Source: Verrucomicrobia bacterium Tous-C9LFEB (GTDB lineage: Bacteria > Acidobacteriota > Terriglobia > Terriglobales > Acidobacteriaceae). Taken from it: DNA of 64,000 nucleotides. This document shows, piece by piece, positions 20,593-53,340 of this stretch. The notes beneath the pieces are model-generated. The model worked only from the letters and a program-made list of their open reading frames with translations, had not been told where the DNA came from and did no database searches. Within the stretch, counting starts at the first letter, position 1, and each line of letters starts with the position of its first letter. The position numbers were made by a program, and so were the translations under genes. The stretch lies in contig CAJCIP010000082.1 in the NCBI GenBank assembly GCA_903970445.1, positions 1 to 64,000 of the forward strand, written 5' to 3'.

Positions 20593-23500
20593 TTAGATCG
20601 CCTGCAGACGGCGGCGAGCCTGACGGCGTAGAACCGCGCGCAGCAGGACAGCTATCAACAAGCATGCGAGCAGCGCTGCCGCTACGAGCATCCACGGGTA
20701 CTGCGCGAAGAAGAGGCGCACACGAATGATGAAGCCCAACGAACCGACATGATAGTAGTCGTTGCCGAGGCGATAGCTGGCGAAACGATTGCCCGTCATG
20801 ACACTGACAGATTGCCGGATGTCCGACGATTGCGAGTTCTTGAGGAACAATTGCGTAAAGTTCGGAATGACTGACTTATCGCGCATCACCAGTAGAACAA
20901 CGGACCGTCCGTGGTTCATGGGTGATTCGAGACCCTCAATGATGGCGTCTGGTATTCCGCCGGCTGTTTCGAGGCTGCCGGTTTCGATGCGATCAGAACT
21001 GCGAACCTTCCACCAGGCGTGCTGTTGTTGGTCGAAGAAGCCGCGCGTGTCCTGAATGCGTAGTGTGTTCTCGCCGATGCGGACCGGAAGATGATCGTTC
21101 AGCTTGTTGATGGCCGGCGTATCGCCTACTGTGCCCATGACGAAGTAATCTTTGTCGCCTGTCATGCCGGCGGCGTCGGTCACGGTGACGTTGAGCACCG
21201 GAAAGCCGGTCTGCGCGCCGAAGTGGCCCATCATAGCCAGATACATTTCGATCTCTTCCGGCTCCGGATTGTCAGGGAGAACAACGGCAGTGTCAGAAAG
21301 ATCGGCGCGTCGCGTGAACGGATAGCCTGCGTTTGCAAATATTTCAAGGTTTGGAAGCTGCGCCCAGTGGGGGATGTCGCGCAGGTCTAGATAGGAGTCT
21401 TTGCGGATGGATCCCTGGAGATTCATCGGAGCGGTGTCCTGACAGAAGCCTTTTTTGGCGATCTGGAAGACGAACTTTGCATTGGTCGTGTTGGAGAACG
21501 GTCGCATGTCGACGACCGGAACTGGCACGACAGTGTACAAATCCGCTGATGCCTTGTCCGTGTGCGGCATGGGCGTCGAACTCACGTAAGCGCCGTTCTG
21601 GTAGAGCTGCAGAGTGCTTTCGTTCGCCAGTGGGATTCCGTTGTAGCGGTAGTACAAATGCAAAGCAAGGTTCTGGCGGTCGCCGTAGAAAAGATCGGGC
21701 GGGATGCGCGAGTAGATACCGACAGGAACAGTGCCATCCCCTTGCAGGTCTCCCTGCTGAGACAAATCGCCGATCGTGGTGATGCGGTCAGTCTTGAGCC
21801 AGCGCGGCGCGTCATCCGGATCACGCGGTTTTGGCCGGCCGTCCAGGCTGACGTGCGCGACTTCGCCGGCAAGATGATCAAACTGCTGAGTCAATGCCTG
21901 CGCGGCGGTGACCAATTCGTCAGGCGAATCTCCGCTTACAACGAGCACTTTCGCGTAAGGGTCGGCGGGGTTGGTCCGCATGGCAATGCTTGGACCGCCG
22001 CCGGCGCCGGCAGCCATGTTTGCAGGGAGTTCCGCAGTGTTTTCGCTGATCAAGATCGCGTTTCCTTGCGGAATGGAGCCAAACGTTACGGGAAATTGCA
22101 CTGGGTGATAGTCGGTAAGAATGCCGAACCACGAGGCGACGATGCCGGCGGCCTGAAGAGCCTTCTTCGAGGGCTGAGAGAGAAAGACTATAGGTATTGA
22201 GGGATGCAGATTGACCGCGACGTCATAGAACGGCAGCGGAAGGAGCTTCAAGTCATTCTGCAGCGGAAGTAGATCGCCGGCGAGCTCGATCGAGCTATTC
22301 GAATCAACGTGAGACCACAGAGTCGAGTGTGATGGGTCTTCACACTTGTAGGTGTAATGACCAACGAACTCGAACGTAAGCTCATTGTTATGGACCAGCA
22401 TGTCTGACGGGATCGTGAGGTTCGCCGTGAGCAAAGCACCGGTCTCAACGCGCGTGTTCAGCAAAGCACGTTGCGAGTCGAGTTTCTCTTGCGGAGAAAG
22501 ATCGTTCTCCATTGATGCTTCAACGGCCGGGCGGCTGGTGACGGGCAGCGTGGCGAAGAGTGTTCCGTTAAGACTCACCTTGAGGTGGCTGATCATCGGA
22601 AGCAGACCCGGCGAGAAGTGGTAGTACAGCTTCATCGTCGCGGTGCGGACGTTTTGTGTCTGAGGCACCGCGAAGTAGACGGAGTGATACGAATCCACGC
22701 CACGCATCACAATCGTTTCCGACGATGACACGTCGGCGATCGTGAAAATGTTGTCGAATTTTCCGGGAGCAACGGGACGCTGGGGAAGGCCAGAGTCGCC
22801 GGGTCCGGCAGGTCCGGACATGCGCATGCCGGTAGGCAGCGATTGGCCGGAGTAGGGGCCGGTCTGATACCCCGGCGCGATGTTTTGCTGTCCCCCCGCA
22901 GGAGACATGGGCGCATTCATGATGCGCTTCTGCGCCGACGCGGTAAGACCAAGACCAAGCAGCGTGAGAAAGATGATGGAAGCGGTGCGGGCCACCTTGG
23001 CCTTTGCAGGAGTGCGCTTGAACGCGCCGCTGACGGCGTGCCGGATGCCAAAAATAGCAAGCTGGAAAATGCGGTAAAGGCTTCGAACAGGCTGGTCGGC
23101 GTCGCGCGCCTCGCCCCATCCGAGCCACGTATCCGCGCGTGAGTAGAGAACCATCGTTAGAGCTTCCTCTTCCTGAATACTGAGCGGCGCAAAGTACGCG
23201 CGCACATACTTTGAGTCACTGGAAATAATCGTCGCGGGCAGGGTAGCATCACCATCCAACACAGGGAAAACGAAGCGAACAGCTTCACCCGGATTCACGT
23301 TTACACGCTGCTGCACCTTCAACATCACACCGCCGTTCGAGATATCTTCTGTTTCGCCCTGGTACACGGTTCCATCAGGAAGCAAGACGCCGGCCGGAAC
23401 GGTCATCGCCACACGAACAGTTTGGCGTCGCTGCTGGCTTTCCCACGCGACTGCGGTAGCGACGCTCAGAATGACCAGGTTGAACAGTGTCCAGATGACG

Positions 23501-35829: not shown

Positions 35830-35934
35830 TGAATCGCTCCTTCATTCCGTTTGGATGCACTCTACTCGCTTGCGGAGAGTCCAGGCACCGTCTTGGCACT
35901 TTCGGCGGGCTTCTACGGCGTGTACCGTACGTTC

Positions 35935-38058
35935 ATGCGTTTCTGTTCGATAGCTGCCCTTGCCTGCTTTGCTGTACCGGCCATTGCCCAATCCGCGTTG
36001 CACCTCATACCCATGCCACGGGAGGTCGTGACCAAAGCTGATCGCCCTCTGCCGGATGGCGTGACGATCGAGTGCGCGGGCTGTGACCTTGAAGACCAGT
36101 TCGCGGCGGACGACTTGAAGAAGACCCTGGGAGAACGCGGCCTCAGCACGTCGCTTCCACGAGGTCTCAGGATTGTTTTTCGCCGAGTTGGCAGTGGAGC
36201 GGACTCTCGTTTCACTGACGCGATGCGGGCAGAAGGCTACACGATCTCCAGCAGCGCGGATGCGCTGACACTTTCAGGCGCGTCAGCCTCCGGCGTCTTC
36301 TACGCCGCCCAGACGGTGAAGCAGATGCTCGAACGCAGACCTGACGGGACGTGGGTGCTGGATGGGGCAGACATCCGCGACTGGCCAGCCATGAAGTATC
36401 GTGGCCTGCATGACGACCTCTCGCGTGGCCCGGTGGATACGCTTGAGTTCCAGAAGAAGATGATTCGCACCCTGGCGGCTTATAAGGCAAACCTCTATTC
36501 GCCGTATTTCGAGCACACACAGCAATATGCCGCCAACCCCTTCGTAGCGCCGCCGGACGCTAGCATTTCTCCCGCCGATGCGCGTGAGCTGACAGCGTAC
36601 GCGGCGAAGTATCACGTCATTGTCGTACCCGAGCAGGAAGCGTTCGGGCACCTCCGTCACACACTCATGTGGGAAAAGTTCGTCGACATCGTGGAGACTC
36701 CGCACGGTGCATTGATCTCGCCCGGTCAGCCCGGTTCGCTGGCTTTTATTCACCAGATGTTCAGTGAGCTCGCGACGATGTATCCGGGACCCTTCCTGCA
36801 TGTCGGCGGAGATGAGACAAGCGACCTTGGCTTAGGACGGACTCGCGCGGACGTAGACAGCCGGGGGCTTGCGCCGGTCTATCTCGACTTTATGCAGCGG
36901 ATCGTAACGGACCTGCAGCCGCTGCACCGGAAGATTCTCTTTTGGGGCGACGTTGCGCAAGACGCGCCGGCGCAGGTAAAAGCTCTGCCGCAATCCTTCA
37001 AAGACAACACCATCGCGATCGCCTGGGGCTATACACCGCGACCTGAAGGTTTCTCAAAAGCGATCAAGCCATTCTCGGATGCGGGGCTCGAGATGTGGGT
37101 CGCGCCTTCGATCAATAACTATCGCCAGGTCTATCCGAATCAGCAGTTGGGGCTCGATGACATTCAGGAGTTCACGCGCGACGGGCAGAGCCTCGGAGCG
37201 ACGGGGCAGCTAAACACCCTTTGGGATGATGATGGAGAGTCGCTCGCGAACTGCAACTGGTATGGGATTCTGTTTGGCGCCACAGCCGCGTGGCAGCATG
37301 GTGAAAGCTCCATACCAGCGTTCCAAACGAGTTACGGGCCTGTGTTTCACGGTGACAACAGCGGCCTGCTGAACGAAGCTGAAAACGAACTCACAGCGGC
37401 GATGACGCTGCTCACCAACACAAAGGTGATTGGCGCTACGGAAGGCTCCGATGGCTTGTTCTGGGTTGATCCGTGGTCGAAGGACGGACAAGGCTTTGCG
37501 GAGAAGATGCGTCCCATCAGCTCCCCTCTGAGACTCCACGCGGAGCGCGCGCTCACTCTGGTTGCGCAGGCACGCGCGGGAAACACGAACCTTCGCGAGA
37601 CCGAAGCGATGGAAGCGATGGAGTTCGGTGCGCGCCGCATCGATTTCCTCGGGCTCAAGTTTCAGTTGGCGGATGAGATGGCAAGTGGCTATGCGCAGGC
37701 TTATACCGAATCATCAATACCGATGCAGACGCTCAAGCACATTCATCCCGGCCCTGCGGCGCTGCTGTCAGACATCAACGGAGTTAATGGTCGTCTGCAG
37801 GACCTGATCGATGGCTACGCGCAGCTACGCGACTTGTATGAGAAGCAATGGCTGAGCACCTATCGGCCCGGCGGTCTGCGACCTGTGCTGGAGCGATACG
37901 ACTTCGCGATAGCGACTTGGCTTACTCGAGTGGATGCCGTGAGAAGCGCACAGCGCCAGTGGTCTTCTTCGCGCTCACTGCCAACGGCCGTCAGCGTCGG
38001 CATTGCGCCGCCCGCTGCACCCGTGGTGGTGCCCCAACCAAGCCCTGTGACGCGGTAA
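35935..38058 (+). CDS. GH20 beta-N-acetylhexosaminidase, exported
   Basis: 707-residue secreted glycosidase that removes terminal GlcNAc or GalNAc from glycans. After the signal peptide (FCSIAALACFAVPAIAQ) comes the GH20b-like domain (HLIPMPREV...GFYAAQT-like GVFYAAQTVKQML) and the (beta/alpha)8 barrel beginning RGLHDDLSRGP. The catalytic pair is the Asp-Glu of HVGGDETSDLG near residue 295, where Asp positions the substrate acetamido group. IPEQEAFGHL-like VVPEQEAFGHLRH is also typical. The ATG at 35935 is chosen as it begins the signal peptide; no strong ribosome site precedes it. It is followed after five bases by nagA, so the two are one operon and the substrate probably yields GlcNAc. Confidence 0.92.
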   Translation: MRFCSIAALACFAVPAIAQSALHLIPMPREVVTKADRPLPDGVTIECAGCDLEDQFAADDLKKTLGERGLSTSLPRGLRIVFRRVGSGADSRFTDAMRAEGYTISSSADALTLSGASASGVFYAAQTVKQMLERRPDGTWVLDGADIRDWPAMKYRGLHDDLSRGPVDTLEFQKKMIRTLAAYKANLYSPYFEHTQQYAANPFVAPPDASISPADARELTAYAAKYHVIVVPEQEAFGHLRHTLMWEKFVDIVETPHGALISPGQPGSLAFIHQMFSELATMYPGPFLHVGGDETSDLGLGRTRADVDSRGLAPVYLDFMQRIVTDLQPLHRKILFWGDVAQDAPAQVKALPQSFKDNTIAIAWGYTPRPEGFSKAIKPFSDAGLEMWVAPSINNYRQVYPNQQLGLDDIQEFTRDGQSLGATGQLNTLWDDDGESLANCNWYGILFGATAAWQHGESSIPAFQTSYGPVFHGDNSGLLNEAENELTAAMTLLTNTKVIGATEGSDGLFWVDPWSKDGQGFAEKMRPISSPLRLHAERALTLVAQARAGNTNLRETEAMEAMEFGARRIDFLGLKFQLADEMASGYAQAYTESSIPMQTLKHIHPGPAALLSDINGVNGRLQDLIDGYAQLRDLYEKQWLSTYRPGGLRPVLERYDFAIATWLTRVDAVRSAQRQWSSSRSLPTAVSVGIAPPAAPVVVPQPSPVTR

Positions 38059-38063
38059 GACGA

Positions 38064-39266
38064 ATGACGATCACGGCACGCAGACTTTACACGGATATCG
38101 GATCTATTGAGTTCCCCGTTATTACGGTTGGTGAGGACGGGACGATAGCCGACATCAACTCCGACCCGGTGGCATTGGTTCAAGAGCAGGACACGCTGAC
38201 GGCGGCTTTTGTCGACATCCACACCCATGGCGCGGTCGGCCACGATGTCATGTCTGCATCGGCGGCTGACTTGAGCGCGATGCAGCGATTCATCGCATCA
38301 AGGGGAGTGGCGCAGTACCTGCCTACAACAGTAACGGCTCCAATCAGTGCGACCCTTCGTTCGCTCGAAGCTCTGGCAGATGCGATTGAGCGCTCACCGG
38401 AAGAGGGCGAGGCGCAACCGATCGGCATACACCTCGAAGGACCGTTTCTTTCGCACGCGAAGCGGGGCGTACATCCAACCGAGGAGCTGCAGCCACCGAG
38501 TATCGAGCTGTTCGAGCGCTTTCAGCAGGCCGCGTACGGCCACATTCGCCTCGTGACCATCGCCCCAGAGCCCGCAGCCATTCCTGAAGGTGCGGGCTCG
38601 ATGATGCCGGACATCTATCGACGCTCGTCGGCATACGAACTCATCGAGCACTGCGCGAAGGCAGGCGTGAGGGTGTCACTGGGACATACCAACGCAAGTG
38701 CGAGCGAGACGCTCATCGCCATCAAGAGTGGAGCCACCAGCGCAACACACAGCTTCAATGCGATGCGGGCGCTCAATCACCGGGAGCCGGGAGTTCTCGG
38801 AGTCGTCTTCGATGAAGACAATATCTATGCAGAGTTGATCTGTGACGGTGTTCATGTGGCACCCGCCATGGTGCGACTGTGGTGGAAAGCCAAAGGACGA
38901 GATCGCGGCATACTCGTGACCGATTCCATGTCCGCCGCAGGAATGCGGGACGGAGAGTACATGCTCGGGCAATTCCCTGTTGTTGTCGCCGATGGCCGGG
39001 CTTTGCTTGCGGAAGATCTGGCGCGAGGCAAGGAGACTCTGGCTGGCTCGGTTCTCACGATGGACAGGGCAGTTGCAATGTTTCAGCAGTTCACTGGAGC
39101 AGACCTGAGCGATGCCACGAGGCTTGCGTCGCACAACCCTGCAGCTATGCTCGGTCTGCGAGAGCGAACCCGTCTTGCGGTCGGTTCCCCGGCGAACATC
39201 AATCGATTCGATGGCGAAGGCAGGCTGATACAAACATACCTGCGAGGCAGGCGCGTCAGGATGTAG
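38064..39266 (+). CDS. nagA: N-acetylglucosamine-6-phosphate deacetylase
   Basis: Cytosolic amidohydrolase converting GlcNAc-6-phosphate to glucosamine-6-phosphate and acetate. The 400-residue protein has FVDIHTHGAVGHDVM (HxH), GIHLEGPFLS (metal Glu), VSLGHTNAS and SATHSFNAM (His ligands) and ILVTDSMSAAGM (catalytic Asp). The reading frame is open upstream, but the ATG at 38064 lies five bases past the GH20 stop and begins the conserved sequence. Its 3' end overlaps the convergent kinase gene by 11 bases. Confidence 0.94.
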   Translation: MTITARRLYTDIGSIEFPVITVGEDGTIADINSDPVALVQEQDTLTAAFVDIHTHGAVGHDVMSASAADLSAMQRFIASRGVAQYLPTTVTAPISATLRSLEALADAIERSPEEGEAQPIGIHLEGPFLSHAKRGVHPTEELQPPSIELFERFQQAAYGHIRLVTIAPEPAAIPEGAGSMMPDIYRRSSAYELIEHCAKAGVRVSLGHTNASASETLIAIKSGATSATHSFNAMRALNHREPGVLGVVFDEDNIYAELICDGVHVAPAMVRLWWKAKGRDRGILVTDSMSAAGMRDGEYMLGQFPVVVADGRALLAEDLARGKETLAGSVLTMDRAVAMFQQFTGADLSDATRLASHNPAAMLGLRERTRLAVGSPANINRFDGEGRLIQTYLRGRRVRM

Positions 39267-40176
39267 CGCCGCCACGTGCGAGCCACATAGCGCCTTCCAA
39301 CGGCTCGACCGCTTGTTCGGCAATCTGCAGGTCAGGATGGCGTGCGTGCAGATAGGTTCGCATGGCTTCCCGAACCTCTACCAAGTGGCTAATGACGGAG
39401 CCAGTGAAGGCTACTCTGCGGGAATCACCAATGGCGCATCCACAGGCTTGCATTTTGATCATCACAAGTTCAACCTGCTCGCCGAGATCGCGGCCTGCCT
39501 GCCGCAGCACCTCGCGAGCGACCTCGTCGCCCTCAGCCGCGCACTCCGCAACGGTAAGTGTCAGCGCTGCGAAGTCCGGCCGACGGTTGGCGTTCGCTTT
39601 TGCGATCAACTCACCAACGCTACGCAGGTCCCATGCTGAGCAGATGCGATCCAGCAGCAGCGTCTTCTTCCCGCGGTCGTACGCTTTGAAAGCCGCTCTG
39701 ATGGCGTTCAGGCCAATCCACGAGCCTGCGCCTTCATCGCCCACCACAGGACCCCAGCCGCCAGCGGTAACGTAGGTGCCATCCGAGCAACGCCCAGCTA
39801 TGTACGATCCAGTACCTGAGATGGCCAGCACACCGGGGCCGCCGCGGAAAGCAGCATCGAGCGCAATGGCCTCATCGCCATGAAGCAGAAACTCACCAGG
39901 AACGAGCTTTCGAACTGAGTCGTTGGCCCACTGACGTACGGCCTCGATGGAAACTCCGGCGATGCCCATGCAGGTGCATTTCACACCGTCGAGTCTGACG
40001 CCGGCATTCTCCGCAGCAGCCTTGATCACTTCATGGAGACGTTGTGTGGCAACTTCTTCACTGACGTTCATCAGCTTCACCGTGCCTGTGGCAGCTCGAC
40101 CGAGGACGCGCTCTTCATCGCCGATCCAGCATTCCGTTTTTGTTCCCCCGGCATCGAGCGCCAGAAAATACGGCAT
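39256..40176 (-). CDS. BadF/BadG-type N-acetylglucosamine or N-acetylmuramic acid kinase
   Basis: 306-residue actin-fold sugar kinase of the BadF/BadG/BcrA/BcrD ATPase group, the same group as eukaryotic NAGK and the clostridial MurK that phosphorylates both GlcNAc and MurNAc. Seen: phosphate-1 motif LALDAGGTKTECWIGD, ACMGIAG-like CTCMGIAGVSIEAV, GVLAISGTGSYIAGRC (phosphate-2) and GGWGPVVGDEGAGSWIG. Neighbours (GH20, nagA and the NamZ fusion) strongly point to amino sugars. Whether GlcNAc, MurNAc or glucosamine is the real substrate is not decided. ATG at 40176 has GGGAG nine bases upstream. It is divergent from the fusion gene, with 110 bases between. Confidence 0.88.
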   Translation of the reverse strand: MPYFLALDAGGTKTECWIGDEERVLGRAATGTVKLMNVSEEVATQRLHEVIKAAAENAGVRLDGVKCTCMGIAGVSIEAVRQWANDSVRKLVPGEFLLHGDEAIALDAAFRGGPGVLAISGTGSYIAGRCSDGTYVTAGGWGPVVGDEGAGSWIGLNAIRAAFKAYDRGKKTLLLDRICSAWDLRSVGELIAKANANRRPDFAALTLTVAECAAEGDEVAREVLRQAGRDLGEQVELVMIKMQACGCAIGDSRRVAFTGSVISHLVEVREAMRTYLHARHPDLQIAEQAVEPLEGAMWLARGGATS

Positions 40177-40286
40177 CTACTTCGACTCCCATGCGAATGC
40201 TTACGGCAATCACGCACTAAGCCCGATACTATAACCTGCAACACGGTCATACGTCGCTTCGCGACCTCCGCAGGAGAACGCCCGCC

Positions 40287-43200
40287 TTGCTCATTTCAGC
40301 CGCGCTGTATGCATCGGCCTCAGCTACTGGAAAGCTGAGTTCCATTGACCTCGTGTTGATCGCGTTTTACCTGCTCGGTATTACGCTGTTCGGACTACGC
40401 TTCCGCAAGAGCAGCAAAGGCGCTGGAGCAGACCGCTCGCTGAAGAGCTACTTTCTAGCAAACAACACGACTCCATGGTGGGCGATTGCGCTGTCTATCG
40501 TGTCCGCGGAGACGTCAACACTAACGATCATCTCCATTCCTGGAATTGCGTTCGCGGGAAACTTTGGATTTCTTCAAGTCGTTCTGGGTTATCTGCTTGG
40601 CCGAGTGATCGTAGCTGCCCTGTTTCTGCCGCGCTACATGAAGGGCGAGATGCTGACGGCATATCAACTGATTGATCGCCGCTTCGGCCCCGTGCTACAC
40701 AAGGTGACGGCCGGCCTATTCCTGTTAACACGCGCTGCCGCCGAGGGAGTTCGTGTTTTTGCGGTGAGCATTGTTGTCGGTGTAGCGATTGGCACACGCG
40801 ACGTGCTTTCGATCGCAATCATCTCCGCGCTGACGCTGCTGTACACATTTGAGGGTGGCATGGCTGCGGTCATCTGGACTGATGTCGTGCAAATGGTGAT
40901 TTACGTCGGCGGCACCATCGTGGCCGTGTTCACGCTGGGCTCGCATGTGCCGGGTGGATGGCAGCACATCGATGCGGTCGCTTCTGCGGCGGGCAAGTTT
41001 CACATCTTCAATTTTGCCCTAAATCTGACGACGACTTACACATTCTGGGCCGGCGTGCTTGGCGGCACATTCCTCACCATGGCTTCGCACGGGACAGATC
41101 AGTTGATGGTGCAGCGGCTGCTCGCTGCTCGAAACTTGCGTGAGTCGCGGTTGGCACTGCTGAGTTCGGGTGTTGTCATCCTGATTCAGTTCACTCTATT
41201 TTTGCTCATTGGTGCGGGGTTGTACGTGTTCTACGGTGCACAGGCAGGTGCGACGTTCCGAACCAACGACTACATCTTTCCGACCTTCATCGTTCGAGAG
41301 ATGCCTATTGGTGTGGCGGGCCTGCTGATCGCTGCTATTCTGGCGGCCGCCATGTCGAACCTTTCGGCGGCGCTTAATTCGTTGTCTTCGACAACGGTGG
41401 TGGACTTCTATATGCGGCTTCGTCCCAAGGCAGATGATCGCGAACGCGGAATCATCTCGAAGTCGTCGACGATTGTCTGGGCGTTGGTGCTCTTCGCGAT
41501 CGCGGTGTATTCCGTCAGCGTCGGAGGCAAGGGTCACGTTGTTGAAGTCGGTCTTTCCATTGCTTCGGTGGCGTATGGCTGTCTGCTGGGTGTGTTTCTT
41601 CTCGGCACGTTGACGAAATACGCAAATCAGATAGGAGCCACAATAGGTATGGTCTGCGGCTTTGCATTGAACATCTGGCTCTGGCAGGGACACTTCCCTT
41701 TTCATCTCGGTGCAGTAACAGTGCCGCACATTGCGTGGACCTGGTACGTGCTGATCGGGTCAGCGGCAACATATGTGATTGGCTCTGCCGCCAGCCTGGT
41801 CTTTAGGCCTTCGCGGAAGGTCTTTGTAACGGCGGCCGTCGCACTCGCTTTCGTTGCTTGCACGCTGAGCTCGAGCGCGCAGACATCCACCCCTGCTGCG
41901 GCTCCGGATTTTTCAGCAGTTTCTAAACTAGTCACGGACGCGATTGCGGCGCACAAGCTACCGGGAGCCGTCGTCGTCATCGGACACGGCGGCGAGGTGG
42001 TGTTTAACCAGGCATACGGCAATCGCAAAGTTGAAGGAGAGCCTGGTCTGAACGGCCAGCCGTCGGCAGCAGAGCCGATGACGGAAGACACGATCTTCGA
42101 CATGGCTTCTCTGACGAAAGACCTTGCAACGGCGACGGCAGTGATGCAGCTCTACGAACAAGGCAAGCTGCAGTTCGATGATCCAGTGCAGAAGCACCTG
42201 CCAGAGTTCAACGTTTTAAACGATGCGCAGCGCGCACAGGTGACTCTGCGCATGCTGCTCACGCACACCTCTGGTGAGGCTGCCGACATCAGCCTCAAGG
42301 ATCCCTGGGGAATCACGTCCTCGGATAAAGCAGAGGGCATCCGGCGCGCATTGACGAACCCGCTGCAGTCCTCGCCCGGCGAAATCTTCCGCTACTCCGA
42401 TATCAATTTCCTTCTGCTCGGTGCACTGATCGAAAAGCTTACCGATCAACCTGAAGACGTGTATGTTCAGGAGCATGTTTTTGCACCACTTGGGATGAAG
42501 GACACGCGGTATTTGCCTGCGTTTAAAGCTTGCGAGCCGCACGCGATGGTGGGAGTTGCGGTGGCGTGGGCGCCTAAGCCGCCAGGAAGGATGCTGTTCA
42601 CTTGCCCTGCCGGAACGTGGAGTACATCGCTGCTGGAGCGCATCGCGCCTACAGCGCACGATGACGAAGCGAAGGACACAAATCCTGATTACGACCATCT
42701 GCTGCGCGGGACAGTGCATGACCCGACGACTCGCCGCATGGGAGGCGTTGCTGGGCACGCAGGGGTCTTCTCCACGGCACATGATGTGAGCTTGTACGCG
42801 CAAGGCCTGCTCGACGCGCTCGCTGGGCGACCGACGCAATTTCCGTTGAAGCAGGCCACGCTACAGTTGATGACAGTGCCTGAACAACCCGGGCATAATG
42901 TGAGCCAGCTTACTGCTGCGAATGCCGCGCAGGCGGCTGCGATTGCAGCGGGTCTAAAGGGTACCGAGTCCGGCTTGGCGCCAAGCTACCCGGCTGTCAA
43001 AGGACAGAATCTTCGCGGCTTCGGATGGGATATCGATACTGCCTTCTCGAAGCCGCGCGGTATAGTCTTTCTGATTGGCAGCTTCGGGCACACGGGGTTT
43101 ACAGGCACATCGCTGTGGATGGACCCAGGGTCGGACACGTATGTCATTCTGCTCGCGAATGCGATTCATCCGCGCGGCGGCGCGCCGATCTCCAATCTTC

Positions 43201-44570
43201 GCGGAGAAGTTGCGACGGCGGCTGCCACGGCACTCGGGCTCTATGGCTGTGCAGGAAAGCCATGCGGAGCAGCGATCGATGCCTCCACTTCAATCACTGC
43301 TGCCTCTCCAAATGGAACAACTACACAGACTGGGATCGATGTTCTCGAGAACGATCATTTTGCTGAGCTGAAGGCTCTGGAAGCGGAGCATGGAAGCACC
43401 CTCAGGGTCGGCTTGCTCACGAATCAATCCGGCTTGGACGCGCATGGCCAGCGCACCATTGATGTGTTTGCGAGAAGTCTCAGAAACGCCGTGCCCGGAG
43501 CAACACTGAGCGCGCTCTTTTCGCCTGAGCATGGCGTTACAGGCAAGCAGGACAGCACGAACATCGTTGCCGAAACGGATGCTACTACAGGCCTTCCTGT
43601 GATCTCACTCTACGGCCCACACGACAGCGACAAGCGGCCCTCGCACGAGCAGTTGAAGGATCTTGATGCAGTTGTGATTGATCTGCAGGACGCAGGTGTG
43701 CATTTCTGGACTTACGAATCTGTGCTCGGGTATTTTCTGGAGGCGGCTTCCAAAGAACAAATCGACTTTCAGCACCGGATTGAGATCGTCGTGCTGGATC
43801 GACCCAATCCGATCAATGGCGTTGACCTGCAAGGCCCAATGGTTGATCCGGACAGAACGTCGTACGTGGGTTACATGCCGCTTCCGGTGAGGCATGGCCT
43901 CACCTATGGTGAGCTCGCGCGATACATCAACGGCGAGAAGCACCTGAGCGCGTCGTTGAGCGTCGTCGCCATGCATGGCTGGAAGCGCGACGAGTATTTC
44001 GACCAGACCGGCCTGCGCTGGACGAATCCAAGTCCCAACCTGCGTTCTCCCGAGGCAAACATTCTGTACCCCGCACTGGGATTGATCGAAACGACCAACA
44101 TCTCTGTAGGTCGTGGCACGGATGCTCCGTTCTCCTTCTTTGGCGCAGGCGTTCCGCAAGTCGACAAAAAAACCGGTAGGCAAGATCCGGCCTGGTTTCA
44201 TGCGGACGAGGTGGTTGCATATCTGAGGGCGAGAAAGATAAGCGGAATCAGTTTCGCGGCGACTAAGATGCAGATCGCGGAGGACGCCAACCACTATCCT
44301 TTTCACGGTCAAAATATCGATGCTGTTGCGGTAAAGGTAACGGATCGTGCTGCGCTTGACTCTCCTCAACTTGGCATTGAGATTCTTGCCGCTCTGCATC
44401 ATCTGTATCCCGGCACATTCCATCTCGATAGAGCGATGACGCTCGTCGCTAACCAACAGACGATGGATGCACTGCAACGAGGCGACGATCCGAAAGCAAT
44501 CGCAGATTCCTTAGCAAAGCCTCTTAGCGCGTTTCGCGCAAAGCGAGCTCAGTATCTGCTCTACCCATGA
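40287..44570 (+). CDS. Sodium:solute symporter - AmiE-like serine hydrolase - NamZ (DUF1343) fusion
   Basis: A single uninterrupted frame of 1427 residues with three parts. Residues about 15-500: SSS-family symporter with about 13-14 membrane helices (IALSIVSAETSTLTIISIPG, FEGGMAAVIWTDVVQM, AAILAAAMSNLSAALNSLSS). Residues about 510-535: a hydrophobic segment ending SSSAQ, like an internal signal peptide. Residues about 540-1000: penicillin-binding/beta-lactamase-fold hydrolase with SxxK (Ser608, Lys611, in ASLTK), YSD, and HTG (FGHTGFTG). Residues about 1038-1427: DUF1343/NamZ with Glu1081 in FSPEHG, VIDLQDAGVHFWTY, LDRPNPINGVDLQGP and RHGLTYGEL. In Bacillus, AmiE removes peptide and NamZ removes terminal MurNAc from peptidoglycan. 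Start is TTG at 40287 with AGGAG ten bases upstream. Neighbours fit amino-sugar salvage. Sugar specificity of the symporter part is inferred. Confidence 0.93.
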   Translation: MLISAALYASASATGKLSSIDLVLIAFYLLGITLFGLRFRKSSKGAGADRSLKSYFLANNTTPWWAIALSIVSAETSTLTIISIPGIAFAGNFGFLQVVLGYLLGRVIVAALFLPRYMKGEMLTAYQLIDRRFGPVLHKVTAGLFLLTRAAAEGVRVFAVSIVVGVAIGTRDVLSIAIISALTLLYTFEGGMAAVIWTDVVQMVIYVGGTIVAVFTLGSHVPGGWQHIDAVASAAGKFHIFNFALNLTTTYTFWAGVLGGTFLTMASHGTDQLMVQRLLAARNLRESRLALLSSGVVILIQFTLFLLIGAGLYVFYGAQAGATFRTNDYIFPTFIVREMPIGVAGLLIAAILAAAMSNLSAALNSLSSTTVVDFYMRLRPKADDRERGIISKSSTIVWALVLFAIAVYSVSVGGKGHVVEVGLSIASVAYGCLLGVFLLGTLTKYANQIGATIGMVCGFALNIWLWQGHFPFHLGAVTVPHIAWTWYVLIGSAATYVIGSAASLVFRPSRKVFVTAAVALAFVACTLSSSAQTSTPAAAPDFSAVSKLVTDAIAAHKLPGAVVVIGHGGEVVFNQAYGNRKVEGEPGLNGQPSAAEPMTEDTIFDMASLTKDLATATAVMQLYEQGKLQFDDPVQKHLPEFNVLNDAQRAQVTLRMLLTHTSGEAADISLKDPWGITSSDKAEGIRRALTNPLQSSPGEIFRYSDINFLLLGALIEKLTDQPEDVYVQEHVFAPLGMKDTRYLPAFKACEPHAMVGVAVAWAPKPPGRMLFTCPAGTWSTSLLERIAPTAHDDEAKDTNPDYDHLLRGTVHDPTTRRMGGVAGHAGVFSTAHDVSLYAQGLLDALAGRPTQFPLKQATLQLMTVPEQPGHNVSQLTAANAAQAAAIAAGLKGTESGLAPSYPAVKGQNLRGFGWDIDTAFSKPRGIVFLIGSFGHTGFTGTSLWMDPGSDTYVILLANAIHPRGGAPISNLRGEVATAAATALGLYGCAGKPCGAAIDASTSITAASPNGTTTQTGIDVLENDHFAELKALEAEHGSTLRVGLLTNQSGLDAHGQRTIDVFARSLRNAVPGATLSALFSPEHGVTGKQDSTNIVAETDATTGLPVISLYGPHDSDKRPSHEQLKDLDAVVIDLQDAGVHFWTYESVLGYFLEAASKEQIDFQHRIEIVVLDRPNPINGVDLQGPMVDPDRTSYVGYMPLPVRHGLTYGELARYINGEKHLSASLSVVAMHGWKRDEYFDQTGLRWTNPSPNLRSPEANILYPALGLIETTNISVGRGTDAPFSFFGAGVPQVDKKTGRQDPAWFHADEVVAYLRARKISGISFAATKMQIAEDANHYPFHGQNIDAVAVKVTDRAALDSPQLGIEILAALHHLYPGTFHLDRAMTLVANQQTMDALQRGDDPKAIADSLAKPLSAFRAKRAQYLLYP

Positions 44571-46878: not shown

Positions 46879-49617
46879 TCATTGCACAACAAGGGTGATC
46901 GTGGAGCTGTGAACGATCGAGACCCCGTTGACCGTTGCGCTTGCTGTAACGACTACAGGATAGGATCCGGGTTTTGCAGGAGTGTTCCCAGCCACCGGCG
47001 CGTTTGCAGAGCTTGCGCATCCGCTTAGTCCCACGGTAAGGATGAAGACGAAAGAGGCGACCAGTAGTGGAAGTTTTCGGCGTCGCAACGTCGCGAAACA
47101 GCAAAACGAGGCGAATGCTAAAGATAGCTTCCACCGCGTGGAGCGTGCTGTCGGCTTATTGCTTGAGAACTGCATGTTCTGGTGCCGACTTTGTGGAGCG
47201 CCGGTATATCCAAACAGGATTAAGGTGGAGTTGCCGGAGATTGTAGAGGTTAGATCAATCGGATTTACGCTGAAGGAGTGTTCGGCATTCAGTCCTGTGG
47301 GTGCGCTGGCTGTGAGCTCGATTGTTTCGTTGAACCCGTTAAGAGATGTTGCGGTCAGCACAATTCCTGGCGCGACCTGCCCCGCGGTAACTGTCACTGT
47401 CGCGACTGGTGGAGTAAAGCTGAAATCTGGCGCGTTAGCGGAGCTGACGTTCAGGACAAAGGCGGCTCTCGAACCGATGAAGGTGGCATCGCCCAGATAC
47501 GTGGCTTGTACCTTCTCCGTTCCGGCGGAGAGGTTTGTCGTGTCAAGCAGGAAGGTGGCCGCGCCCGACAGAAGCGTCACTGGCGAACCGACGGGCATGC
47601 TGTTGACGGTGAATTGCACGTTGCCGGTTGGCGTGGCGGTCGATCCCGCTGATGCTGATGCTACCGAGACAGTGAAGTAAACCGCAGTTCCGGCGCGGAC
47701 GTTGTTTGCGTTCCCAGCAACGTTGGTGGACGTCGGCAAAGTACCGGTGGTCACAACGATTGGAGTCACCGAAGACCAATGTGTGACCAGTTGAAAAGCG
47801 TCAACTGAGCCCAAGCCGGTAGCTAGGTCGTAGCCAGCGTTTGCCGAAAAGCCAATAGTGCCGCTTGAACAGTCTGTCGTGCCCACGGTGCACGGACTGG
47901 CATTGCTGCCGGAAGTGATGTCGTGGAACGCCAATGGGCCGTAGGTGCTGTTCGCTAGTGGATACAGGACGGAGTTCGCGTTACCGAGACGATCTCCTGT
48001 TTGTTGCACTACAAGAGCGAGCAGACCCGCGAAGGAGGGTGGTCCCACCGATGTGCCGCCGACGTATTCCACTGCGCCGGAGGAGTCGAGAAAGCCATTC
48101 GAGCAATGACCTTCTGTGCAGATGAGATAAGGATCGTGGTTGGGCGAGGCGTTCAACGAGACATCAGGCACGTCACGCGCAAAGTCGTTTGGCACACCTT
48201 CCCCGACCTGCCATGCGGGCTTTGCGAAGTAGGCGCTTCGTCCTCCACCCGCGGCGTCGATTCCGCCGAGTGCATCGTCGTTCCATACGACCTCGGGAAT
48301 GTAGGACAACGCCGACCCACCGCCGCTTACATTCGCAGGACCGAAATAGGTTCCAGCTGATTCATTGAAGCTCGTTCCACCAACCCCGGTAACTTGAGGC
48401 GAGGAGGCCGGAAAATCCACAGCAAAACCATGTGACGCGCTGACGACGTTCGGATCGCAGTCGGTGGCTCCAGCGTCACCAGCAGGCGCGACCACTGTCA
48501 TCCCCTGGGCGCTGGCTTGCTGCAACAACTGACTGTAATATGCCAAGGACGCGGCTCCGAGATCAGCTTCGCAGTCGCCATAGCTGAGCGAGATGATCGG
48601 CGCCAGGTTCTTGTCAATCGCCTCGGTGAGCGAACCATCCACGACGCTGGTCGAGTTGACGTAGAGGATGGTAGCTCCGGGCGCTGAGCCTCCCGCCCAC
48701 TCGATGTCAAGTTCTGATTCGAGGAGATCAGCTGTTGATGGAAAACCCGGATCGCTGCCATAAAGAATTACCGTTGGAGCAGTGGCGCTCAAAGCAGAAG
48801 CCGCCCGGAAGGCCGCGATGTCGGATAGGTTGATGTCGGACTGGCCTACGACAGCAACCGTGACGCCAGAACCGGTTGTTCCACTAGAGAGCAGCGCATT
48901 CTCGTCATAGATGGTGTGAAAGTCGTTCGGAGAAAGGTAATGCGTTCCATTGCTGATTGTGTATTGCGGCCCGACGACAAGGTTCTTCGCTGCCGAATGT
49001 AGTAATGCCGTGCCTATAACGTGACGTGGCTTAGGCGAGAAGTCATCAAGACCGGTAATGGCCATGGTCAATGCTGCCAATTCTGGTGGCAACCTGGCTG
49101 GTGTCACATTCGCGAAATGACTCTCATCATGCAGCGTGACGCGGTGCAATTCGGTGGCAAACGCACTCTCCGCCTGGCCGGCTGTGCCTGAGAAGCGGAC
49201 GAAGGAACCGCCCTGGCCGTCTTCTATGTTCCGGAAGCCTTGAGCCTGCAGCCATCGAGAAACTTTCGCTACATCTGCTCTAGCGAGGCCGAAACGTCTC
49301 TGGAATTCCTCTGGCGTCAACCATTGGTGGAAGCGGGGTGAAGTTGCATTCTGCTGATCGAGCAAAAGCTGGTCGAGATCCTGCTGCTGTTTTCGCGTTC
49401 TTGAAAATCGCAGCGACAGGTTGTTGAGGGAGGTTTGTGCAGGAACTCGACCGTAATCCATTGCGTGCAACGCCCGCGGTGAAATGCTACCTTCGATCTC
49501 AGAAGCTGACGGTTGCTGAATCTCGCGGGTGAGCCTCGGAGCCTGTCCACGCATTGCAAGTCCAGCCGCAAGAACTACGCAAATGGATTGCAGTCGAACG
49601 ACAGAAAAGAGGCCCAT
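46879..49617 (-). CDS. Sedolisin-type (S53) secreted peptidase with Ig-like and membrane C-terminal part
   Basis: 912-residue pro-kumamolisin-type acid serine peptidase. Signal peptide (ICVVLAAGLAMRGQA), activation prodomain about 30-200 (FHQWLTPEEFQRRFG; ITGLDDF), catalytic domain about 215-640. Catalytic Glu300 and Asp304 lie in ESELDIEWAGGSAPG; the nucleophile Ser523 in YVGGTSVGPPSFAGL; the oxyanion Asp in APAGDAGATDC; DVSLNA precedes the nucleophile. An Ig-like domain follows (about 660-760, ending YLGDATFIGSRA), then a beta region interrupted by two hydrophobic segments around RRRK, a GC lipobox-like LTVGLSGCAS, and a final beta strand ending LVVQ. ATG at 49617 with AGAAGGA upstream. It is transcribed downstream of a degenerate paralogue. 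Confidence 0.93.
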   Translation of the reverse strand: MGLFSVVRLQSICVVLAAGLAMRGQAPRLTREIQQPSASEIEGSISPRALHAMDYGRVPAQTSLNNLSLRFSRTRKQQQDLDQLLLDQQNATSPRFHQWLTPEEFQRRFGLARADVAKVSRWLQAQGFRNIEDGQGGSFVRFSGTAGQAESAFATELHRVTLHDESHFANVTPARLPPELAALTMAITGLDDFSPKPRHVIGTALLHSAAKNLVVGPQYTISNGTHYLSPNDFHTIYDENALLSSGTTGSGVTVAVVGQSDINLSDIAAFRAASALSATAPTVILYGSDPGFPSTADLLESELDIEWAGGSAPGATILYVNSTSVVDGSLTEAIDKNLAPIISLSYGDCEADLGAASLAYYSQLLQQASAQGMTVVAPAGDAGATDCDPNVVSASHGFAVDFPASSPQVTGVGGTSFNESAGTYFGPANVSGGGSALSYIPEVVWNDDALGGIDAAGGGRSAYFAKPAWQVGEGVPNDFARDVPDVSLNASPNHDPYLICTEGHCSNGFLDSSGAVEYVGGTSVGPPSFAGLLALVVQQTGDRLGNANSVLYPLANSTYGPLAFHDITSGSNASPCTVGTTDCSSGTIGFSANAGYDLATGLGSVDAFQLVTHWSSVTPIVVTTGTLPTSTNVAGNANNVRAGTAVYFTVSVASASAGSTATPTGNVQFTVNSMPVGSPVTLLSGAATFLLDTTNLSAGTEKVQATYLGDATFIGSRAAFVLNVSSANAPDFSFTPPVATVTVTAGQVAPGIVLTATSLNGFNETIELTASAPTGLNAEHSFSVNPIDLTSTISGNSTLILFGYTGAPQSRHQNMQFSSNKPTARSTRWKLSLAFASFCCFATLRRRKLPLLVASFVFILTVGLSGCASSANAPVAGNTPAKPGSYPVVVTASATVNGVSIVHSSTITLVVQ

Positions 49618-49681
49618 ACGATCCTTCTAACACTATTTTCGGCCTGAACTACTTGCCAACGTAATCGGTGGTCAAACGAAT

Positions 49682-52600
49682 CTACTGCACGGTCACCTGA
49701 AACTGTTGTGTATGTGTTGTGCTCGTCTTGCCATCCGAAGCGGTTGCAGTCACGGTGAGGTACTGCGTGCCGCTTGGTGTGCCGCTGGTGAGCTGCTGCC
49801 CGTTTGCGCCATTGATGATGTTCGTGCAACCAACACTGCCAAGTAACCCGATCGTGACCAGGCAGGCCAGCAGCAGAGGACGCCGCCCTCGAGAGCTTGG
49901 CAGGCAGAGAGCAAGAAACAATCCAGCGAAGGCGACGCCACCAGCTGCCTTGCCGAAGTTGATCTTCTGATTGTCCGCATGCTGCGCGGTCGTGATAACG
50001 GTCAGAACGGATGTTCCAGAGTTCGTAAGCGTCGATGGATTGAAGCTGCAGGTAATCCCGGTTCCCGCGGGCGGCACGCAGGCGAGGGTTACTTGTCCTG
50101 TAAATCCGGCGTAAGCCGTCACGGTCGCAGTCGTTGCAGCACTCGAGCCTGCAGTTAGCGAGATGCTCGCCGGTGAGAACGTCAAGTCTGCATCTGTGAT
50201 GGAAATAGTCAACGCCACAGATGTCGAAGTGGAATAGCTGCTGTTTCCGGAATACACGGCTGTGATGACATGCGTTCCACGTTTCAAGCCGGTGGTACTG
50301 ATTTGGGCGTAGCCCGCTCCGGGCCCGTTCGAACTGACGCCGATTGTGCCGAGCGTTGTGCTTTGGCTGTTGTACAGATCCTGGAAGGTCACGCTGCCAG
50401 AAAGCGCAGAACCACTGGTGCCGGCTGTCGCCTGAGCGATGGTCGCAGTCAACACAATATTCGCTCCGACAAGAGCGGAGGATGTGCTGCTCGTCAGTGT
50501 TGTTACACTACCGGTTCCAGTCGTAGTTGAGGTTGAGTTGAAGCTGAGTGTCGGTGACGTGCTTGCTGCCCAGTTTCCATCGCCGGAGTACATTGCGTAC
50601 ACCGTTGTGGCCGCGCTACCGAGCGTCGCTGTATATGTGGCCTGGCCATTAGTGATGGTGGGAGAGCCCACGGCTGTGCCATTTACGTAGAACGCCACGG
50701 CACCAGTAAACGGGAATGCCGTCGCCGAGCCATTGGTGTTCTTTACTGTGGCCGTGTAGGTTACGGATTGCCCGGCAGTTGGGCTCGACGGGGTCGCTGC
50801 AATGGTAGTGGTGGTTGTACCGCTGACAACCTCAACAGAAGCGTACTGCGATCCGCTGGTACTGGATGCGAAGTGCGTGTCACCACTGTAGTTGGCTTCA
50901 ATGGGGCTATACGCGCCCCGAGCGCCCAACGTAGCCGTGCAAGTGGCAATGCCGTTTGCAAGCGTCCCCGTGCAGAGCGTGGTCGTGCCGATAACAAAGC
51001 TGACGGAGCCGCCGATTGCATTCGCAGAAGTCTGGTTCGGGCTAACTGTGGCGGTCAACGTCACCTGGCCACCCACCGGCACACTATTTGGCGTGGCGTT
51101 TACGACCGTCGTCGTTGGAATGGTTCCACTGGTGACCGTGGTTGTGGATGAGTTGCTGTTGTAGTTGTTGTCGCCACCGTAGCTTGCGGAGAAATTGTTG
51201 CCGGAGGCAGAGTACGCGTAGGCATTCGTCGTAAGCGTTGCCACACCACCGGAGACAGTGCCGGCACCGAAGATGGCACCGTTGTTCAGAAAATTCACAT
51301 TGCCAGTCGGTGAGGCAGCATTGTTGCCGGCAGCGGCAATCGCCGCCTGGAATGCGACTGTGTCGCCGCTGTTCGGTGAAGTTGGCGAATAGGTAAGCGT
51401 CACGGCGGGCGTCGCCTTAAGGAAGTTTGCTGTAACGCGCTGGGTGGGACATGTGAAACTTGGATCGGTGCCATCGCAGCTGATGAGGAAGACATCGCTA
51501 CCGGCCTGCACGCCCGGAACGAGCACCTGAGCAACCGCCGTTCCTCCTGAGCCACTTAGCGTACCGGTGTAGGTGTTGGTGTCAGACGTTCCGGAAGGAA
51601 TGACGTTCACCTTGCCCGTCGGCGTGCCTACGCCTGAAGCCGACTTCACCGTCACGGCCAGCGTGGCATCGCTGCCGATAGGGACGGCAGCAGCCTCGGT
51701 GGCGCTCAAGGTTGCGCTCTCAGGCTCAATCGTGAAGTTGTCGGTGACTGTGCTTGTCTTGGCTGCGTAGGTAGCGTCCCCGCTGTAACTGGCGGTGACG
51801 GTGTACGCTCCGCCCGGCAGCACATTGGTGGTGTACGTGGCGGTACCGTTGTTCAAAGTCGCAGGTCCAAGAGCGCCGTATGGCTTCACATTGAAGGTGA
51901 CTGTGCCGGATGGAACGGCCCCATTCCCCTGGCCGGAGATGTCTTTTACCACTGTGGTGAAGGTGATATTCGAGCCGTGCGTTTGTGAATAGTTGTCGAG
52001 CGAGATCGATACGTCTGTCGCTAGCGAGCCGCGTGGATAGAATTTTGCCAGCTTGTCGAGGTCGACTAATCCGAGGCCGGTATTTTCTTCCCAGGTGCCT
52101 GCGGCTGCATGATCCGGTTGCGTATACAAGCCGGGCATCGGGCCGAGATTGTAGAGGGTCGTGTTGATGTTGCCGAGCCGTGCAGGAGAGCCATCTGCGT
52201 TCGCCGGCATTGTTGCGAGGATCGAACTGATCGTCTTCACAAACGCCGCAAGGTCCGTTGCGGTGAGATCCGGCTCATGACGAAAGTCGTCCGCGGACAG
52301 CCCGGGTGCGTGCTGCCAAGAGGGCCGAAGTTCCGTCAAAGAAGCACTTACTGGAGAAGCCAAACCCGGTTTGAGTGCCACCGAGGTAACTTCACTCAGG
52401 GATGCCGGGAACGATGAGGAGCCGGCTACACCACAACCGCTGGACGCCAGCACCGTGATGCCTTGAGCACTTGCTTGCTGCAAGGCAAGTTGCGTAGCTG
52501 CTTGCGTCGCGGCGTCCGAGTCACCTGCGCACGTTGTGCTGGTCATGGAAACGACGCGGCTGCTGTTGGCAGCGACGATAGAGGTCAGCTCGCTCAGCGG

Positions 52601-53212
52601 ATCGATCGCGAGGATTGTTCCTGCCGAAGTGCCAAAGGCCACTGCATGGGAGCTTGGTAGGGTGCTGAGTCCGCCGAGCGCAAGGACGTCCGTCGCAACG
52701 CTGGAAGAGATTGCTGGGGCGGCGGTATTGGCAATGTATTGCGTACCCGCGATCGCGACGCTGTGCAAGCCCGTCGAAATCGCTGTTTCTACCTGTGACG
52801 CGGTTCCTACGACTGTGACACTTAGGCCGGAAGAAGAGCCAGAGCTGACGGTGAGACCATTGGCGGCAGCCCAGGTGTTGATTCGCGCTATCTGCTCGCT
52901 CGTAGCACCAAACTGCTGGCCAAATTGCTCGGGCGTCAGCCAAACGTGATACGCGGGATTTCCTGTAGTTTGAACAGCCGAAAGGTAGGCTTTCAAGGCC
53001 GTCAGCCGGTCGGCAGTGGGCTGAACATAAACCGTGAATTGCACCGGCGCGGTACCGGGGATCGCGCCTTGATCGACCGACCCCGCGGGCAGCACAGGAA
53101 CCTGAACGTGTAACGTGGCGCGTTGGGCGATCGATCCCATGACGAGACAAGACAGGCCCAGGAAAATCGCGGCGCAACGGCGTACGCAGAATCGCAAGGA
53201 ATCGGTGTGCAT
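49682..53212 (-). CDS. Degenerate sedolisin-like protein with five Ig-like repeats
   Basis: 1176-residue exported protein. Signal peptide (RRCAAIFLGLSCLVMGSIA), then a clear kumamolisin prodomain (YHVWLTPEQFGQQFGATSEQI). The following S53-type region is shortened and lacks the Glu-x-x-x-Asp pair and the GTSxxxP nucleophile; remains such as SARLGNINTTLYNLG-like PARLGNINTTLYNLGP are left. It is probably inactive as a peptidase. From about 415 on come repeated Ig-like domains with the recurring ending Y-S-G-D (SYSGDATYAAKTS, SYGGDNNYNSNSS, NYSGDTHFASSTS, MYSGDGNWAASTS, VYSGNSSYSTSTS). The end has two hydrophobic segments flanking RGRR, the lipobox-like LLGSVGCTN, and a last strand ending VTVQ, as in the neighbouring sedolisin. 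ATG at 53212 begins the signal peptide. May be an adhesin or binding protein. Confidence 0.85.
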   Translation of the reverse strand: MHTDSLRFCVRRCAAIFLGLSCLVMGSIAQRATLHVQVPVLPAGSVDQGAIPGTAPVQFTVYVQPTADRLTALKAYLSAVQTTGNPAYHVWLTPEQFGQQFGATSEQIARINTWAAANGLTVSSGSSSGLSVTVVGTASQVETAISTGLHSVAIAGTQYIANTAAPAISSSVATDVLALGGLSTLPSSHAVAFGTSAGTILAIDPLSELTSIVAANSSRVVSMTSTTCAGDSDAATQAATQLALQQASAQGITVLASSGCGVAGSSSFPASLSEVTSVALKPGLASPVSASLTELRPSWQHAPGLSADDFRHEPDLTATDLAAFVKTISSILATMPANADGSPARLGNINTTLYNLGPMPGLYTQPDHAAAGTWEENTGLGLVDLDKLAKFYPRGSLATDVSISLDNYSQTHGSNITFTTVVKDISGQGNGAVPSGTVTFNVKPYGALGPATLNNGTATYTTNVLPGGAYTVTASYSGDATYAAKTSTVTDNFTIEPESATLSATEAAAVPIGSDATLAVTVKSASGVGTPTGKVNVIPSGTSDTNTYTGTLSGSGGTAVAQVLVPGVQAGSDVFLISCDGTDPSFTCPTQRVTANFLKATPAVTLTYSPTSPNSGDTVAFQAAIAAAGNNAASPTGNVNFLNNGAIFGAGTVSGGVATLTTNAYAYSASGNNFSASYGGDNNYNSNSSTTTVTSGTIPTTTVVNATPNSVPVGGQVTLTATVSPNQTSANAIGGSVSFVIGTTTLCTGTLANGIATCTATLGARGAYSPIEANYSGDTHFASSTSGSQYASVEVVSGTTTTTIAATPSSPTAGQSVTYTATVKNTNGSATAFPFTGAVAFYVNGTAVGSPTITNGQATYTATLGSAATTVYAMYSGDGNWAASTSPTLSFNSTSTTTGTGSVTTLTSSTSSALVGANIVLTATIAQATAGTSGSALSGSVTFQDLYNSQSTTLGTIGVSSNGPGAGYAQISTTGLKRGTHVITAVYSGNSSYSTSTSVALTISITDADLTFSPASISLTAGSSAATTATVTAYAGFTGQVTLACVPPAGTGITCSFNPSTLTNSGTSVLTVITTAQHADNQKINFGKAAGGVAFAGLFLALCLPSSRGRRPLLLACLVTIGLLGSVGCTNIINGANGQQLTSGTPSGTQYLTVTATASDGKTSTTHTQQFQVTVQ

Positions 53213-53340
53213 AAAGTTAGAAGGATTGTTTCTCACCCGCGCTGAAAATAGCAAGAACCAGGGTGATTCGTGTTCCGTACCAAGCGTGCCCTAAGCGGTC
53301 CCCCAGGCATTTTGTAAAAGCTCTGCGGTAACATCACCGA

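Follow-up and report, generated by a model that had tools for sequence, protein, structure and literature searches.

The 64,000-nucleotide stretch analyzed here (the window) comprises positions 1 to 64,000 of contig CAJCIP010000082.1 from Verrucomicrobia bacterium Tous-C9LFEB (assembly GCA_903970445.1), which the GTDB lineage places in the family Acidobacteriaceae of the phylum Acidobacteriota. On its forward strand, a single open frame of 1427 codons at positions 40287 to 44570 encodes a 1427-residue polypeptide that contains, one after the other, a sodium:solute symporter of the SSS type, an internal segment that resembles a signal peptide, a serine hydrolase, and the exo-beta-N-acetylmuramidase NamZ. 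The frame begins with a TTG codon, and an AGGAG at 40272 to 40276 lies 10 nt 5' of this start. A first-pass annotation of the window had read the three protein domains in one frame, and the list of open reading frames (ORFs) as well as the Pfam matches agree with it. The motifs it had quoted were located in the ORF, with ASLTK at residue 607, YSD at 703, HTG at 935, SPEHG at 1079, RHGLTYGEL at 1202, and the segment ending in SSSAQ at residues 512 to 532. All four Pfam matches (SSF, Beta-lactamase, NamZ_N, and NamZ_C) exceed the gathering score.

The symporter domain SSF covers residues 55 to 458 (40449 to 41660; Pfam 5.9e-43) and is full-length, with 147.7 bits for PF00474 against a cut-off of 22.8 and a match to model positions 1 to 406 of 406; TIGR00813 scored 215.5 against a cut-off of 184. 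The nearest chain by sequence in the PDB is 5nv9, recorded as a putative sodium:solute symporter, which we take to be the sialic acid transporter SiaT. The final transporter helix was placed by eye at residues 482 to 506 (41730 to 41804). It is directly followed by the predicted internal signal peptide (41805 to 41879), which consists of the n-region RPSRK (507 to 511), an h-region (512 to 527), and the residues SSSA, with Ala531 at position -1 and Gln532 at +1.

The serine hydrolase (41922 to 43172; residues 546 to 962, 2.6e-60) belongs to the Beta-lactamase family and is PBP4B/AmiE-like. Its active-site motifs SxxK, YxN (here YSD), and HTG/KTG are all present, including Ser608, Lys611, and Tyr703, and the likeness to AmiE is one of motifs. 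S608, K611, Y703, S704, and D705 are invariant in all 122 aligned hydrolase rows, and position 935 is H in 99 of these, N in 19, A in 3, and a gap in 1, with all N and A rows being mycobacterial. The nearest NCBIfam model is PBP4B (NF002968, an equivalog), which gave 138.2 bits for the whole protein and 143.5 for the domain against a cut-off of 385; the hydrolase is, by these scores, a relative of PBP4B and not a member. The NamZ part (DUF1343; 43407 to 44564) contains both NamZ_N (residues 1041 to 1255, 2.4e-69) and NamZ_C (residues 1259 to 1426, 4.3e-31). The acidic residue of SPEHG, Glu1081, is retained and does not vary among the 12 fusions that were aligned; it is presumably the catalytic residue, and we take NamZ to be GH171. 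An AlphaFold2 model of the hydrolase–NamZ half, generated from a 12-row alignment, had a mean predicted local distance difference test (pLDDT) score of 53 and a predicted template modeling score (pTM) of 0.37 and was set aside unused.

Distribution of the fused gene

In a first sample of 396 genomes across the phylum, 44 of which belong to the family of the window, the symporter and the hydrolase were found in one frame in 28 of the 44 family genomes, 27 of them also with NamZ; in G195, where symporter and hydrolase are fused, a run of N precedes NamZ. Another 12 family genomes had separate or split genes, and 4 had no match. One frame with symporter and hydrolase was absent from the other families among the matches listed. 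The nearest case there is G009, which carries both parts in one frame with one stop between them, and the usual form in the rest of the phylum, again among the matches listed, is a two-domain hydrolase–NamZ protein of about 800 to 900 residues together with a symporter of about 500 residues as a protein of its own. Among 200 family members from 79 genera in a second sample, 23 genomes in 7 of the genera carried the fusion. The fused form was present in all 7 genomes sampled from the genus of the window and in all 7 sampled from genus g4. Further long frames in the family (G478, G553, and G493) and in other families (G331 and G175) were read as candidates and found not to be fused, and the long frame of G516 showed no symporter in the stretch read, which ends at the contig end.

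A pattern scan of species genomes was also evaluated for the best 80 of 406 relatives (loci with L numbers), of which 64 are mycobacterial and 16 are not, the latter being 15 acidobacterial records and one metagenome-assembled genome (MAG) titled 'bacterium'. Among these best 80, the fusion was seen only in the Acidobacteriota records and this MAG. All three domains are carried in one open frame at 12 of the 16 loci. In the MAGs L006 and L009, the frame is broken inside NamZ, L018 has a run of N inside NamZ, and L037 begins within the gene at a contig edge. The first-pass annotation had considered that homologues might always be encoded as three genes; many in fact share a single gene, and the remaining homologues that were read consist of two genes, one for the symporter and one for hydrolase–NamZ, which are sometimes directly adjacent in one frame.

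The 64 mycobacterial loci (Mycobacterium and Mycolicibacterium, among L007 to L083) encode a standalone serine hydrolase, for example L017:5836-7383, that is 64 to 76% identical to the hydrolase domain of the window. The alignment retained 63 of the 64 (the partial L036 was dropped), and 12 of the 63 were used for a quick tree. In this tree, the mycobacterial domain is nested in Granulicella fusions as the sister of the window's domain with a support of 99, and this nested position suggests that the hydrolase domain alone was transferred between phyla.

Origin of the internal segment

Standalone symporters of the phylum end at most about 20 residues past their last helix, and standalone hydrolase–NamZ proteins start with a Sec signal peptide as judged by eye, with L146 being ambiguous. 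The fused proteins run from the symporter end through basic residues, a hydrophobic core, an Ala-x-Ala-like site, and a linker into the hydrolase. The internal segment thus corresponds to the N-terminal signal peptide of the standalone hydrolase–NamZ proteins, which bears out its earlier description as signal-like. A symporter gene, a single in-frame stop, and a hydrolase–NamZ gene follow one another at seven loci, L142, L201, L203, L207, L208, L210, and L212; the seven family genomes with such an adjacent pair, in the same frame with one stop, are G139, G407, G453, G496, G531, G544, and G553. At L201, L207, and L210, an ATG immediately follows the stop. Loss of the single stop between such in-frame neighbors yields the fused gene, and these arrangements indicate that the internal segment once was the signal peptide encoded by the hydrolase gene and was buried when the preceding stop was lost.

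How often this happened was addressed with symporter trees; all trees of this study are quick trees without bootstraps. With 58 rows, one clade of all fused genes was not rejected (approximately unbiased test, p-AU 0.189). With 66 rows from more genomes, it was rejected (p-AU 1.9e-5, or 0.0027 without L206); this second tree was built without L122 and without five symporters belonging to other families, and L211 and L212 are in none of the trees of this study. The rejection is due to L206 and to the split lineage of L118 and L119. A branch with a support of 76.9, which was not starred, has the remaining fused rows and L118/L119 on the same side. The history would therefore comprise one gain or more, L206 being a possible second, and at least one split, and many independent fusions are not claimed.

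Both exceptional lineages have features of their own. At L118:4203-5021, a gene of the TIGR03435 family lies between the symporter and hydrolase–NamZ and splits the pair, and the corresponding position in L119 holds a copy that is 94% identical. These two loci are positioned within the main fused clade, and their separate hydrolase part begins with an ordinary-looking signal peptide. L206 (G511) is a fused gene from one MAG, with 42% of the alignment columns filled, that is nested among the genes with an in-frame stop; its stop codon may have been lost independently, as a second event.

Proposed maturation and its alternatives

Whether the internal signal has been kept for use was assessed at the junctions. 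The 56 fused frames were reduced to 39 distinct junctions for the counts of identity, codons, and start codons, and 47 entered the motif test after loci had been added; repeats of genomes already counted were dropped, and identical junctions were counted once. Ala-[Gln/Glu] occurs at most 20 residues from the hydrophobic core in 41 of the 47 junctions, compared to 14.2 +/- 3.0 in shuffles (maximum 27 in 5000). After thinning to less than 45% identity, the motif was present in 22 of 27 junctions (shuffles 8.6 +/- 2.4, none of 3000 reaching 22). Otherwise the junction has diverged; over its first 35 residues, 250 random fused pairs have a median identity of 0.25, vs. 0.77 for the symporter. All four codons for Ala are used at -1. 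The mean hydrophobicity over 19 residues is 1.78 in the fused segment, 1.79 in standalone signal peptides, and 2.17 in the last transporter helix. In the window, the features of a signal peptidase I substrate are all present, namely the basic n-region RPSRK, a 16-residue core, and a small residue at -3 with Ala at -1 (SSA, followed by Q).

We consider it probable, from these sequence features, that the gene product is a polyprotein matured by signal peptidase I into an importer and a soluble periplasmic hydrolase. SSS transporters of the PutP/SiaT type have a cytoplasmic C-terminal end. With this cytoplasmic end and the basic flank, the next hydrophobic segment would lead into the periplasm, which is why a cut after Ala531 is proposed. 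The gene would have arisen when the stop codon between two adjacent in-frame genes was lost. The ribosome would make the SSS symporter first, and the signal peptide that once began the product of the downstream gene would then serve as an internal Sec signal with which the hydrolase–NamZ part crosses the inner membrane. Cleavage by signal peptidase I after Ala531 would release two products in equal numbers, a symporter of about 531 residues with one more helix, the signal remnant, and a soluble periplasmic bifunctional enzyme of about 896 residues. The serine hydrolase would strip the peptide from N-acetylmuramic acid (MurNAc) in an AmiE-like manner, NamZ would free MurNAc at chain ends, and a GH20 enzyme would take N-acetylglucosamine (GlcNAc). 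The symporter would import the released amino sugar, and a kinase, MurQ, and NagA would pass it to metabolism.

Several observations weigh against this reading. In-frame adjacency of the two genes is not universal, as at L211 in G478 they are direct neighbors in different frames. As the sequences are related and not independent, significance is exaggerated by the shuffle counts, which serve as a guide rather than as a probability. Ala-[Gln/Glu] is lacking in 6 of the 47 junctions (L070, L097, L107, L110, L194, and L198), of which L070 and L097 still have the Ala, followed by Lys or Asp. With a mean of 17 uncharged residues, the hydrophobic core of the fused proteins is long enough to remain as a membrane anchor. 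Standalone signal peptides carry the motif about as often (14 of 18), and its retention could partly be inheritance, against which the junction identity of only 25% argues.

In the alternative of an uncut protein, the segment would remain an extra membrane helix and the hydrolases would stay on the importer and hand the sugar over directly. The first-pass annotation had raised both this tethered machine and a cut after synthesis. Tethering agrees with a frame that is open across many genomes, with a core that could span the membrane, and with the junctions L107, L110, L194, and L198, which have no good cutting motif. However, an uncut anchor requires no Ala-[Gln/Glu], and tethering therefore accounts less well for a motif that 41 of 47 junctions retain while the remaining segment drifts. 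The hydrophobicity of the segment, which is like that of signal peptides and below that of the last helix, and the ordinary-looking N-terminal signal peptide that the same part forms in L118 and L119, where the hydrolase gene stands apart, also speak against it. The junction evidence thus favors the cutting idea, and we regard a permanently tethered protein as unlikely.

The substrate was approached via the neighboring genes, which match the setting of MurNAc/GlcNAc salvage suggested in the first-pass annotation. A GH20-family beta-hexosaminidase-like protein, assigned by Pfam and with a signal-like N-terminal part as judged by eye, is encoded on the forward strand at 35851 to 38058, followed on the same strand by the GlcNAc-6-phosphate deacetylase NagA at 37848 to 39266 (TIGR00221 above cut-off). 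As the TIGR00221 match begins at residue 115 of the listed frame, the true start of NagA is probably downstream. A BadF/BadG-family kinase is encoded divergently on the reverse strand at 39256 to 40176, leaving about 110 bp to the fused gene. It scored 120.6 bits for PF01869, its best PDB match is the MurNAc/GlcNAc kinase 8zo3 (E 3.4e-33), with hexokinase and NagK ranking behind, and it reached 95.9 with the NagK equivalog model, below the cut-off of 370. Two MurQ genes above cut-off are present elsewhere in the genome, and no salvage genes were recognized within about 1.5 kb on either side of them. The genome, which is 94% complete, contains no second copy of the fusion and just four weak single-domain matches. 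At least one of the three genes for GH20, NagA, and the kinase was found upstream in 20 of the 22 fused loci having about 3 kb or more of upstream sequence, the fused loci L031 and L139 being without any of them. On paper, these parts together would constitute a complete MurNAc/GlcNAc salvage route.

With the same architecture, the importer could carry GlcNAc, a MurNAc-peptide, or another acidic sugar instead of MurNAc. The specificity of the SSS transporter could not be read from the sequence, the alignment with 5nv9 gave no assignment, and the adjoining NagA and GH20 suit GlcNAc equally. MurNAc is favored by the enzymes in the same polypeptide, as NamZ and AmiE-like enzymes release MurNAc, as well as by the top PDB match of the kinase and the two MurQ genes. 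In addition, a MurNAc uptake route with MurT, MurK, and MurQ is described for Tannerella (PMC10465942). We consider another substrate rather doubtful, and MurNAc remains our preferred assignment.

A further explanation, which we deem very improbable, is a second translation start for the hydrolase within the ORF, at its former start codon. Of the 39 distinct junctions, 12 have an in-frame ATG ahead of the hydrophobic core or at it, and 21 have some ATG, GTG, or TTG there; relatives appear to initiate there after the stop. However, 18 of the 39 junctions, including that of the window, have no such codon, so that internal starts cannot generally explain the arrangement, and a Shine-Dalgarno-like tetramer was found in only 3 of the 39. 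Finally, the idea that an assembly or sequencing error joined separate genes can be practically dismissed in spite of the broken frames in some MAG relatives (L006, L009, and L018), as the shared frame in 28 of 44 family genomes argues against an error and the frames that are open in isolates such as Granulicella mallensis, G. paludicola, and Edaphobacter modestus and in the single-contig genomes G217 and G297 already refute it.

Relation to known systems and wider reading

The MurNAc salvage operon of Bacillus subtilis comprises MurQ, MurP, AmiE, NagZ, and NamZ. As in the system described here, an extracellular NamZ and an AmiE-like serine hydrolase are combined with a dedicated importer and with MurQ inside the cell. 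In B. subtilis, however, these are separate genes and the importer is a phosphorylating phosphotransferase system (PTS), whereas here an SSS symporter is accompanied by a separate kinase, and the importer and both hydrolases share one gene. The route described for Tannerella forsythia consists of the MurNAc importer MurT, the kinase MurK, and MurQ (PMC10465942, PMC5790795). It resembles the route predicted here in combining a MurNAc importer with MurQ and with a kinase that uses ATP, and NamZ enzymes occur there too, according to a title cited in PMC10465942, but its genes are separate within one operon; the likeness is one of description. The pairing of serine hydrolase and NamZ, which is frequent in Acidobacteriota here, has a counterpart without symporter in a single two-domain protein, DDPept-DUF1343, tabulated in a 2008 survey of serine proteases (PMC2605481).

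The triple fusion was undescribed in the titles and abstract beginnings that were searched, among the best-ranked matches. For the proposed maturation, the cytochrome b/c1 polyprotein FbcH of Bradyrhizobium is a close parallel, as a multi-pass protein is followed there by an internal signal peptide that is cleaved by signal peptidase, although in a respiratory complex and not in uptake. The cellulose synthase AcsAB of Gluconacetobacter is likewise made as one polypeptide and proteolytically processed (PMC4877109). A membrane protein and its partner are thus encoded in one gene and then split, which is described there, in an unrelated pathway, and is proposed here. In our assessment, the individual components are already known, and the splitting of a fused protein has a precedent in AcsAB.

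Two other regions of the window deserve mention. On the reverse strand at 46879 to 53254, two large, apparently secreted proteins of 912 and 1190 amino acids are encoded; judged from the translation alone, the 912-residue protein has kumamolisin-like sequence, and the pair contains repeats resembling immunoglobulin-like ones. Also on the reverse strand, at 20593 to 25194, a BcsA-like part with PilZ and BcsB share one frame of 1533 codons with an internal signal-like segment that ends in TASA before Q (Ala754). BcsA/BcsB was matched in 19 of 80 sampled family genomes, and both parts are in one frame at 21 of the 23 loci read, counting the window and repeats of one genome. Most of these one-frame loci have, by eye, a similar succession of basic residues, hydrophobic segment, and AxA.

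A wider reading, which we offer tentatively and rate as somewhat short of probable, is that the Acidobacteriaceae fuse in-frame neighbors encoding a membrane protein and then a secreted protein by loss of a stop, and keep the inner signal so that signal peptidase releases both products at one place in the membrane and in a constant 1:1 ratio. This would be a general and largely unrecognized mode of maturation, and the importer–hydrolase–NamZ and BcsA–BcsB proteins would then be two cases of a general bacterial maturation route. For the salvage system itself, one gene encodes an importer and the enzymes by which its substrate is probably released, with relatives at every step, from separate genes through in-frame genes with one stop to the fused form. 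The fusion thereby offers a testable case of how a polyprotein may mature in the salvage of cell-wall sugars, in a soil family with little-studied physiology.

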